Below the pieces are notes generated by a model. That model was given only the letters and a program-made list of their open reading frames with translations. It did no database searches and was not told where the DNA came from. Position numbers and translations under genes: made by a program. A stretch of DNA of 36,501 nucleotides from Acidobacteria bacterium Ga0077522 (GTDB taxonomy: Bacteria > Acidobacteriota > Vicinamibacteria > Vicinamibacterales > Vicinamibacteraceae): contig LNDN01000016.1 of NCBI GenBank assembly GCA_001464065.1, forward strand, positions 1-36,501, written 5' to 3'. Below are positions 16,926 through 19,142 of this stretch, piece after piece. Each line of letters begins with the position of its first letter. Position 1 is the stretch's first letter.

Positions 16926-18035
16926 CTACGCTTCCCAGGGCAACCCGGGACGGCCGAAGTGGCCGTAGTTCGTCGTCTGCCGGTAGATGGGGCGCAGCAG
17001 GTCCAGCGTCTTGATGATGCCGGCCGGTCGCATGTCGAACGTCTTGCGGACGAAGTCCTCGGCGGCCTTGTTGTCGCCCGTGCCGAACGTCTCGACGAGC
17101 AGCGAGGTCGGCTGCGCGACGCCGATGGCGTAGGAGAACTGCACTTCACAGCGGTCGGCCAGCCCGGCCTTGACGACTTCGCGGGCCACGTAGCGACCGA
17201 AGTAGGCCGCGCTGCGGTCCACCTTGGACGGGTCCTTGCCCGAGAACGCGCCGCCGCCGTGCCGCGCCGCCCCGCCGTACGAATCGACGATGATCTTGCG
17301 GCCGGTGACGCCGGCATCGGCCGAGGGGCCGCCGTGCGAGAAGCTGCCCGAGGGATTGACCAGGAACAGGTCCTTCGCGGGCGTCCAGTCGCCGAGCACG
17401 CGCGGCGCGAGTTCCTCTATGACGTAGGCCTTGATGTCGTCCTGGCTGGCCTCGGCCACGTGCTGCGTCGACACGACCACGCGCTCGATGGCCACCGGCT
17501 TGCCGTCCTCGTAGCGCACCGACACCTGGCTCTTGCTGTCGGGACGAATCCAGCGATAGGCGCCGCCCTTCTTGCGATCCTCGGCGAGGCCGCGCGTGAG
17601 GCGGTGCGACAGCAGAATCGGCAGCGGCATGAGCTCGGGGCTCTCGTTGCTCGCATAGCCGAACATCAGGCCCTGATCGCCGGCGCCCTGCTCCTCGGCC
17701 GCCTTGTCGACGACGCTGGAGTTGATTTCCTTGGACTGCGCCGTGATCTTGAGGATGACCTGCACGCCGTCGGCGTTGAAGACCTCATCGGCCCAGTCGT
17801 AGCCGATCTCGCGAATCGCCTGGCGGGCGATCTTCTCGTAGTCGACGTCCTTCGCGCCGGTCGTCACTTCGCCGGCGAGGACCACGAGGTCTTCCTTGAC
17901 GAGCGTTTCCACCGCCACCTTGGAGGTGGGATCCTGAGAGAGACAGGCGTCGAGCGCGGAGTCGGAGATGAAGTCGGCCACCTTGTCCGGGTGGCCCTCC
18001 GACACGGACTCCGACGTGAGAACGAAACGGGACAT
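16926..18035 (-). CDS. metK: S-adenosylmethionine synthetase
   Basis: 369 residues, slightly short for MetK (about 380-400). The N-terminus has [19 protein letters not shown], with the ATP/metal-binding histidine in GHPDK. Further conserved segments are [12 protein letters not shown], the P-loop [15 protein letters not shown] and the C-terminal [12 protein letters not shown]. It makes S-adenosylmethionine from methionine and ATP. It is followed by a strong terminator. The 136 bp before it (18036-18171) are GC-rich without an obvious aptamer. The SAM-type riboswitch of this transcription unit lies further upstream, before the small gene at 18172-18465. Confidence 0.97.
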
Positions 18036-18171
18036 GCGGGGTTAATCCTTCGGGTGATGCAAGTACGTTGGGGCCGGAGCTTCGCCGTGCCAGCCGTTCA
18101 CGTGCCCACGCTCGTGCCCTTCCGGGCCCGTCGGGGCTCGGGCGCACGAGGGTGGACGGGCGCCGGGCGGC

Positions 18172-18465
18172 TCAGCTCACGCGGCGCAGCACGCCTTCGG
18201 AACTGACGGTCGCCAGGATTTCGTCCCGGCGGCCCCGCGCCTCGGTCAGATCGTCCGTCTTGAGCGAATGGCGAATCCGCTCCTGACGCCAGCCGTCAAT
18301 GATAACCGTGTAGGCAATCCACCAGAAGCGGCCATTGCGCCAGAGGTGATGATTCTCACCCAACCGCTGGAACCGGCGGTCGTCGGGCGACAGCGCCACC
18401 TGGAGAGACGGCCGACGCAGGGCCGGGACCGATGAGGACTCTGTGGGGGAGGCGGTCAAAATCAC
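18172..18465 (-). CDS. Small protein resembling a recombinase arm-binding domain
   Basis: 97 residues from a GTG with GGAG 9 nt upstream. The C-terminal 60 residues read like the N-terminal arm-type DNA-binding domain of tyrosine recombinases: HLWRNGRFWWIAYTV, then RIRHSLKTDDLTEARGRRDE, i.e. an aromatic beta strand, a basic strand with a SL-T-D turn, and a helix with ARxRRDE. No catalytic domain follows; the gene stops and metK comes 136 bp later on the same strand. It could be a remnant, but the intact frame, good ribosome site and a riboswitch in its leader argue for a working gene. Function unknown; DNA or RNA binding is the natural guess. The open frame extends to 18744 but runs through the riboswitch and is rejected. 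Confidence 0.65.
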   Translation of the reverse strand: MILTASPTESSSVPALRRPSLQVALSPDDRRFQRLGENHHLWRNGRFWWIAYTVIIDGWRQERIRHSLKTDDLTEARGRRDEILATVSSEGVLRRVS

Positions 18466-18479
18466 GTGTCTTCTCCTGA

Positions 18480-18508
18480 GCAACCAAGTGAAGACATTCG
18501 GAGGTTGC
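18480..18508 (-). promoter_or_regulatory. Candidate expression platform of the SAM riboswitch
   Basis: Between aptamer and GTG, GCAACC (18508-18503) can pair with GGTTGC (18485-18480), ending beside the GGAG ribosome site. A competing 7-bp stem TGTCTTC/GAAGACA would take in part of the same site, and CCTCC just after GCAACC could pair with GGAG. These alternatives suggest control of translation start rather than termination, since no T-tract is seen. Pairings are read by eye. Confidence 0.35.
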
Positions 18509-18541
18509 GGGGTGATCGCCCGCACGGACACTTTTGTTTGT

Positions 18542-18662
18542 TCGTCTCGAACCGCATCGCCGCGGTCGGCTGCCTGCGCCGACCGGGCTGGCACCTTGGG
18601 ATGTCCGCCCCAGGTTGCCGGGCCCGCACTGTGCGGACCGCTCCGGATGTCGAGGAAGACGA
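18542..18662 (-). promoter_or_regulatory. SAM-I-clan riboswitch aptamer
   Basis: On the minus strand the sequence holds the SAM-I core in order. P1 is TCGTC (18662-18658) with GACGA (18546-18542), extended by TCGA/TCGA. A P2-like hairpin around GTCCGCAC/GTGCGG comes next, then GGCAACC (18619-18613). A P3 stem TGGG/CCCA leads directly into AAGGTGCC (18597-18590), and a perfect 7-bp P4, GGTCGGC/GCCGACC, follows. GGCAACC and AAGGTGCC flanking P3 are the most conserved parts of SAM-I and the SAM-I/IV variants. The metK gene downstream fits SAM feedback. The P2 kink-turn is not clear, so the exact subclass is open. Confidence 0.78.
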
Positions 18663-18671
18663 TAGCATTAC

Positions 18672-19142
18672 ATGTGGAGATACACAAGCGTGGATTTACA
18701 GAATGATTCCATAACGGTCGGGGTTCGGCACCTCGGCACCGCACAGACGCCCCAGTACCAGACCCCTGGGGCAGCGGCCTTCGACCTGGCCGCCGCCGAG
18801 ACCGTGACGGTCGCGCCGGGGCGGCTGGCCCTCGTCCCGACGGGCCTGGTGTTCGCCGTTCCCGACGGGCACTTCCTCGCGATCGTCGCCAGGAGCAGCC
18901 TGCCCAAACGCGGCCTGCTGGTCGCCAATGGCCTCGGTGTGCTCGACAGCGACTACCGCGGCCCCGCCGACGAGGCCCGCGTGCTGGTGCTCAACTACAC
19001 CGACGCGCCGGTGACGGTCGCCGCGGGCGACCGTATCGCCCAGGCGTTCGTGCTCCGGGTGCCCCGGGTGCAGTTCGTGCCCCTCGCCCACGACGCTGGC
19101 GCGGACTCCAGAGGCGGGTTCGGCTCGACCGGGGAGCGGTGA
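18672..19142 (+). CDS. dut: dUTP diphosphatase
   Basis: About 156 residues, the length of homotrimeric dUTPases. All five motifs can be found: TPGAAAFDLAAAE (1), ARSSLPKRG (2), NGLGVLDSDYRGP (3, with the catalytic Asp in DSDYRG), GDRIAQAFVL (4) and the C-terminal SRGGFGSTG (5). It hydrolyses dUTP to dUMP and pyrophosphate, which keeps uracil out of DNA and supplies dTMP synthesis. The ATG at 18672 has no ribosome site; a GTG at 18690 has GGAG 10 nt upstream and would also keep all motifs. The 5' end nearly touches the riboswitch transcribed from the other strand. Confidence 0.93.
   Translation: MWRYTSVDLQNDSITVGVRHLGTAQTPQYQTPGAAAFDLAAAETVTVAPGRLALVPTGLVFAVPDGHFLAIVARSSLPKRGLLVANGLGVLDSDYRGPADEARVLVLNYTDAPVTVAAGDRIAQAFVLRVPRVQFVPLAHDAGADSRGGFGSTGER

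Follow-up and report, generated by a model that had tools for sequence, protein, structure and literature searches.

The window, a stretch of 36,501 nucleotides from Acidobacteria bacterium Ga0077522 (contig LNDN01000016.1), carries on its minus strand a SAM-I/IV riboswitch that probably turns off translation of a dedicated small protein, itself similar to an arm-type DNA-binding domain. The close linkage between the riboswitch and the gene of this protein is kept across two phyla, and conserved, mutually exclusive pairings are present in the expression platform between them. SAM riboswitches are mostly known upstream of methionine and SAM genes. The coordinates of all features are collected in Table 1.

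Over the whole window, RF01725 (SAM-I-IV) was the sole match of cmscan at gathering thresholds, covering 18655-18524 on the minus strand and model positions 1-99 of 99. SAM-I-IV was again the top SAM-clan model when the scan was narrowed to 701 bases around the aptamer, and RF00162 (SAM-I) was not the best-scoring model of the clan. The score of 42.2 bits lies barely above the gathering score of 41.1, and the identity of the RNA is secure because of comparative evidence, namely the same RNA in front of homologous ORFs; the folding energy of the riboswitch stretch alone is unremarkable (z -1.75). Among 20 small-gene loci scanned at E up to 0.1, 11 had any Rfam match; RF01725 was found in ten, reaching its cut-off in three, and RF00162 was the better model in one (L095), far under its own cut-off. 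The published Rfam model therefore under-detects the riboswitches of this group. The letters of the ligand core are common to SAM-I, SAM-IV and SAM-I-IV, and a P3-loop pseudoknot with the 3' side is a trait of SAM-IV and SAM-I/IV. The window RNA is firmly a member of the known SAM-I/IV class, and we infer from this membership that it binds SAM. A preliminary description of the sequence had placed a SAM-clan riboswitch at 18542-18662; the Infernal comparison with the Rfam SAM-clan models and the comparative evidence agree with it, and its coordinates overlap the aptamer and omit the expression platform as well as the 3' strand of the pseudoknot. Having seen no kink-turn in P2, it had also offered a SAM-I/IV variant or a new subtype. 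The former holds and a new subtype is not needed, because PMC2864571 describes the SAM-I/IV class as being without the P2 internal loop of SAM-I and SAM-IV.

Table 1. Features of the riboswitch and the genes that follow it (window positions).
Feature	Position	Strand	Evidence or remark
SAM-I/IV riboswitch aptamer	18524..18655	(-)	RF01725, 42.2 bits
5' strand GACATCCGGAG	18641..18651	(-)	part of P1 (SAM-bound state) or of the 11-nt antisequestor helix with 18503-18493
P2 hairpin, 7 bp, no internal loop	18621..18639	(-)	96.7% of cells paired; 4/7 pairs with both-side changes
P3 with core GGCAACC ... AAGGTGCC	18590..18619	(-)	8/9 pairs invariant
P3-loop pseudoknot strand CGGACA	18602..18607	(-)	97.3% of cells paired; 3/6 pairs with both-side changes
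P1 3' strand GATGC	18554..18558	(-)	4/5 standard pairs in the window
P5 hairpin GTTC/GAAC	18540..18552	(-)	92.3% of cells paired; 3/4 pairs with both-side changes
Pseudoknot 3' strand TGTCCG	18525..18530	(-)	13-sequence alignment
Antisequestor 3' strand CTCCGAATGTC	18493..18503	(-)	10/11 pairs in the window
Sequestor hairpin ATGTCTTC ... GAAGACAC	18466..18497	(-)	7/8 pairs in the window; 92.2% of cells paired over 13 sequences
Gene of 97-aa protein, arm-type DNA-binding-domain-like, direct riboswitch target	18172..18465	(-)	dN/dS 0-0.10, relatives, fold
metK (S-adenosylmethionine synthetase)	16926..18035	(-)	PF00438, PF02772, PF02773; 136 nt past the small gene

The structure assigned to the OFF state was evaluated in a 13-sequence alignment with five measures and 500 shuffles, with slid versions of the same structure as control. 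Pairing is possible in 89.6% of its cells, and 14 of its 44 pairs show changes on both sides. On four of the five measures none of the 500 shuffles scored as high; the fifth (further pair types) was unexceptional, with 50 of 500 as high. The slid versions reached 36-49% paired cells, a comparison in which the drawing of the structure on the window's own row by itself favours the drawn version. P2 consists of seven continuous pairs in the window RNA, the P3-loop pseudoknot with the 3' side is present, and seven further rows share the four of five standard pairs of P1. A long insertion throws the row of G005 out of alignment at P1 and P5. A further helix after the pseudoknot ("P6") was unsupported in this alignment (49.2% paired) and was rejected.

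The gene that follows the riboswitch begins with GTG at 18465, preceded by AGGAG at 18477-18473. Between four same-genus genomes, the 64-codon core has in-frame dN/dS ratios of 0 to 0.10, with 14-20 of the 16-24 substitutions per pair in third positions, and the shifted frames give ratios above 2. This codon pattern marks the 97-aa ORF as a real protein-coding gene under strong purifying selection. Members of its family occur in 9 of 40 relatives and 13 of 396 genomes of the window's phylum (the two sets overlap), and in 16 of 392 genomes of a second phylum, that of a Planctomycetota-titled MAG. Counting the window protein, the two sets of genomes hold 31 stand-alone members, to which one full tyrosine recombinase (L106) is added. 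The member of G004 is truncated by a contig end; with the start codons chosen, the other 30 measure 65-133 aa, and 17 of their aligned columns reach at least 90% identity, all within the motif HHLW...WW...R.R.SL.T...AR..RD. On seven viral contigs (L046-L052) there are short relatives that stand alone and have no riboswitch (67-74 aa where measured), and in five of these contigs (L048-L052) the coding context just upstream is similar. In a tblastn search of a phage collection, the window protein and one viral relative found no match. On the other side of the riboswitch, a divergent dUTPase ORF (18672-19142, plus strand) starts within about 20 bases of the riboswitch 5' end, so the promoter of the small gene may overlap the start of the dUTPase coding region.

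A covariance model (R1) was built from 12 small-gene loci, the window's and L023 among them, and five other copies. Upstream DNA is available for 30 small-gene loci, and in 28 of them R1 places a riboswitch before the gene (E no higher than 0.0083; one match, at a contig end, is partial). Twelve of the matches are found by construction, and the other 16 come from loci outside the model. By eye, one of the remaining two loci begins inside the RNA (L045) and the other has the core (L093). R1 found nothing at the recombinase locus or at any of the seven viral loci. Across 28 small-protein genomes R1 matched at E 0.01 in 23, and in 20 the copy at the small gene was the sole match; G003 has three copies, G411 two, and G004 only a copy elsewhere than at the small gene. 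In G001 and G002 there are two and four copies.

Its neighbor metK is much less constant. It follows the small gene in eight of the 31 genomes (G000-G005, G244, G359) and is not next in the other 23, of which 22 hold it elsewhere: 21 on another contig and one (G465) upstream on the same contig; it was not matched in G573. Other genes seen by eye after the small gene encode a penicillin-acylase-like protein, a radical-SAM protein, a MoxR-like ATPase and unrelated products. The riboswitch is thus constant and metK occasional, which makes the small protein the conserved riboswitch target, and it is very likely that the riboswitch regulates it. A simple consensus scan of 17900-18900 returned no terminator-like or promoter-like sites, and metK of the window would probably be affected as well if it lies on a shared transcript. 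The preliminary description had rightly read a first gene other than metK with metK behind it. Its proposal that SAM controls the small protein together with, or instead of, metK corresponds to two gene arrangements that both occur.

Several riboswitch copies have other neighbors. SAM-I/IV copies stand before a MoxR-like AAA ATPase gene in L028 (4962-9350), L077 and L044; a MoxR-like ATPase operon of G003 has a metK-like gene at its end, and in G367 the small gene lies between the riboswitch and a MoxR-like ATPase gene. Four same-genus genomes have a second SAM-I/IV copy, located before a short ORF that starts with MCLDPRP (L029, 5735-6151, minus strand; L030, 4983-5390, plus strand; L033, 4288-4687, plus strand; L082), and a membrane-protein-like ORF comes next in three of them.

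The expression platform offers two competing pairings. The sequestor encloses the ribosome-binding site AGGAG and ends at the GTG start; one of its eight pairs changes on both sides over the 13 sequences, and in all 28 loci this segment is predicted to fold into a hairpin close to the start codon, a count made without a shuffle control. Directly 5' of this hairpin lies CTCCGGGTGTC, with which GACATCCGGAG is also able to pair (94.4% of cells paired, slid versions 36-52%). This antisequestor has 9-11 of 11 pairs in each of the 13 sequences, an alignment with no double-sided change and with unexceptional shuffle controls (60 and 28 of 500). A divergent clade uses GCATCAGGAA with TTCCTGATGC or TTCCTGGTGC instead, and covariation appears because this second clade was added to the alignment: over 27 sequences 90.9% of cells are paired and 21 cells carry double-sided changes, whereas the shuffles average 8.2 and none of 1000 is as high. 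The strands of this larger set were placed by best match, two of them by hand, which favours pairing and not covariation itself; G623, with only 7 of 11 pairs and no plausible antisequestor, was excluded. When the platform region was shuffled, a match as long arose in 0 of 500 for seven of 14 sequences, and in up to 57 of 500 for the weakest. The window's copy is weaker than many of its relatives, since the antisequestor contains a C-A mismatch and the sequestor also falls one pair short. Given the two alternative pairings, the GACATCCGGAG strand can belong either to P1 or to the antisequestor, and the 3' strand of the antisequestor can pair either with the 5' strand or with the ribosome-site strand, in each case one excluding the other.

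The energies of constrained ON and OFF folds, computed for the 13 sequences, differ by no more than 6.7 kcal/mol, and with ligand and pseudoknot left out of the calculation the ON fold is lower in 12 of them; the window's values on the same basis are -87.1 (ON) and -85.6 kcal/mol (OFF). Since the exclusive pairings are conserved and carry compensatory changes, SAM is predicted to turn translation off. In the presence of SAM, P1 and the P3-loop pseudoknot would form and the 3' strand CTCCG(GG)TGTC would stay free; its GTGTC end and the letters after it would then pair with GAAGACACC and hide the ribosome site beside the start codon. In the absence of SAM, GACATCCGGAG would leave P1 and capture the CTCCG(GG)TGTC strand, which would free the ribosome site and permit synthesis of the small protein. 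SAM and the pseudoknot would thus tip a nearly equal balance toward P1 and a sequestered start. A different platform is seen by eye in genomes without the small protein, where several SAM-I/IV copies are followed by hairpin-plus-T-run terminators (L064, L065, L067, L068, L069); those of L065, L067 and L069 stand before metK, with the same aptamer.

AlphaFold2 predicts a strand-strand-strand-helix order for the 58-residue core, aligned with its relatives (mean pLDDT 87.7), that is, a three-stranded sheet with a C-terminal helix. When this core was re-aligned to PDB chains, three of the six best rows were arm-type domains of P4-like integrases: 3rmp_C in second place (Z 5.5, rmsd 1.4 A over 47 residues), 3jtz in fourth (Z 5.1, 1.6 A over 47) and 3ju0 in sixth (Z 4.9, 1.9 A over 49). 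An unrelated mitoribosomal chain came first (Z 5.7) and a Plasmodium AP2 domain third; Z about 5 is a range where common arrangements also score, and the integrase rows are tied with the unrelated ones. Foldseek gave no match at E 0.001 for the full 97-aa model or for the core, and three integrases stand far down its viral list (E 0.19-0.41). The re-aligned full-length model had no integrase among 50 rows, a sequence search of solved structures returned nothing up to E 1, PHROGs gave a single member at E 0.076 and NCBIfam none. The tyrosine recombinase G469/L106 has a homologous N-terminal domain (E 1.6e-6) followed by PF00589 at 52.3 bits. All nine members of alignment A1 match Pfam DUF6538 (PF20172) weakly. 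The window protein scores 16.5 bits against a cut-off of 27; six further bacterial stand-alone members scanned singly gave 18.2-21.8 bits, and one viral relative reached 27.1. The predicted fold, the DUF6538 matches and the recombinase domain all support the "recombinase-arm-like" label given in the preliminary description. As a structural prediction, a stand-alone arm-type (AP2-like) DNA-binding domain of the integrase kind is well supported, and a protein of this fold would likely bind DNA.

Two other explanations of the locus have to be weighed against a dedicated switch, and we consider both very improbable. The riboswitch could simply serve metK, the small ORF being incidental or a leader ORF, as metK is next in the window and in seven more genomes, and several other SAM-I/IV copies of the window's phylum directly precede it. 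This explanation is largely refuted by the 23 genomes in which metK is not next and, in all but one, lies elsewhere, as well as by the purifying selection on the ORF and the position of the sequestor at the ORF's own start codon. Alternatively, the small protein might be an integrase remnant or a mobile-element gene captured downstream of the riboswitch. The homology to the recombinase N terminus and the short stand-alone relatives on viral contigs speak for such an origin, whereas 30 intact copies with their nearly invariant columns, a core dN/dS of about 0.10 or less and a constant linkage in two phyla speak against a remnant. The small protein is likely derived anciently from an integrase or mobile-element gene, and present decay is not likely.

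What the dedicated small protein does may be connected with a motif, (C/T)ATGACA, located about 50 nt upstream of the aptamer. It is present at 21 of the 27 small-gene copies with enough upstream DNA, a count that is partly circular because the motif was spotted in these upstream regions first and counted afterwards; it is absent in G000-G003, G005 and G634, and all five copies of the window's family lack it. A 28th copy (G011) is cut on its contig, and its motif site lies on another contig (C38). Other riboswitch copies in small-protein genomes carry the motif in 8 of 8 cases, whereas all 23 copies from genomes that lack the protein are without it (Fisher 1.3e-7); these controls come from 18 genomes, all of the window's phylum, and include some weak matches. 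One genus supplies seven of the eight, and four of the seven apparently represent one orthologous locus, so that about five loci are independent. Of the 29 motif-bearing copies, 17 have a nine-base gap between the letter that follows the motif and a TTG. A strict pattern with this spacing and a -10 box has 12 matches in the 31 small-protein genomes, eight of them at riboswitches, and one in 43 genomes without the protein; its reversed control has two in all 74. Outside riboswitches this leaves 4 sites in 31 genomes against 1 in 43, and a second pattern gives no excess there (5 in 31 against 4 in 43; reversed control 10 in all 74). There is no clear genome-wide excess, and the sulfur genes found at some sites are no more than suggestive. 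They comprise a PAPS-reductase gene behind a leader encoding MCCCC (G359) and NMT1-type binding-protein genes behind leaders encoding MCACCC or MCACC (G000, G002), one of these in the window's own genome; further sites precede TatA-like, YceI-like and LysR-like (G038) genes or stand at no evident promoter. The window itself has no good site, with four matches at two mismatches, fewer than the 12.6 expected by chance. The Cys-rich leaders (MCACCC, MCACC and MCCCC in L197, L198 and L179) carry terminator-like hairpins after TGTCAT(AT)GACA-like sites and likely represent cysteine attenuation.

These distributions allow two readings of the motif. The small protein may be a transcription factor that is made only at SAM scarcity and binds (C/T)ATGACA, most often at that nine-base distance from a TTG -35 box, activating its own and other SAM-riboswitch promoters as well as some sulfur-assimilation operons; we put this forward tentatively, as somewhat less than probable. 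An action on metK through the motif was rejected, since the motif occurs in none of 24 metK upstream regions (about 350 bases) of small-protein genomes, as in none of 28 control loci. Alternatively, the motif could be the site of another regulator of sulfur metabolism and the small protein otherwise employed, for example in RNA binding or in modulating that regulator, a possibility that we take seriously and place not far short of even. The sites before Cys-leader operons and the LysR-like gene, the lack of the motif in the window's family and its absence before metK all favour another regulator, while the contrast between riboswitch promoters with and without the protein in the genome stands against it. 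Should the transcription-factor reading hold, SAM would be sensed by RNA and the signal relayed by a domesticated integrase arm domain.

Judged by titles and the openings of abstracts, neither a fixed partnership between a riboswitch and a small protein of this kind nor this platform was found in our searches of the open-access literature, and SAM terms are absent from PMC11109978; the small protein family is apparently undescribed. In two phyla this riboswitch class is steadily accompanied by one protein family, and the copy at the small gene is often the sole model match in its genome; the partnership points to a circuit in which SAM is sensed by RNA and relayed by protein. The system is small and testable, as the ON and OFF pairings of the proposed platform are open to mutation. 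It also suggests that an integrase-type DNA-binding domain has been co-opted for metabolic regulation.

Compared with known proteins, members of alignment A1 show a weak likeness to DUF6538, with the window protein below the cut-off. The arm-type domains of P4-like integrases (3rmp, 3jtz, 3ju0) share three strands and one helix with the predicted core, at 20-26% identity; the window protein differs from them in standing alone without a catalytic domain, in its very likely control by a riboswitch and in its motif HHLW...WW. Among RNAs, SAM-I (S box, RF00162) belongs to the same clan (CL00012), and the window RNA differs from SAM-I and SAM-IV in lacking the P2 internal loop and kink-turn. With SAM-I-IV (RF01725) it has in common the core, P2 without an internal loop, P3, P1, P5 and the pairing of the P3 loop with a strand 3' of P5. 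It differs from the known members in its direct target, a small arm-type-domain protein, and in its platform: some SAM-I-IV relatives without the small protein have, by eye, terminator-like platforms, whereas that of the window combines an antisequestor formed by the 5' P1 strand with a start-codon hairpin.
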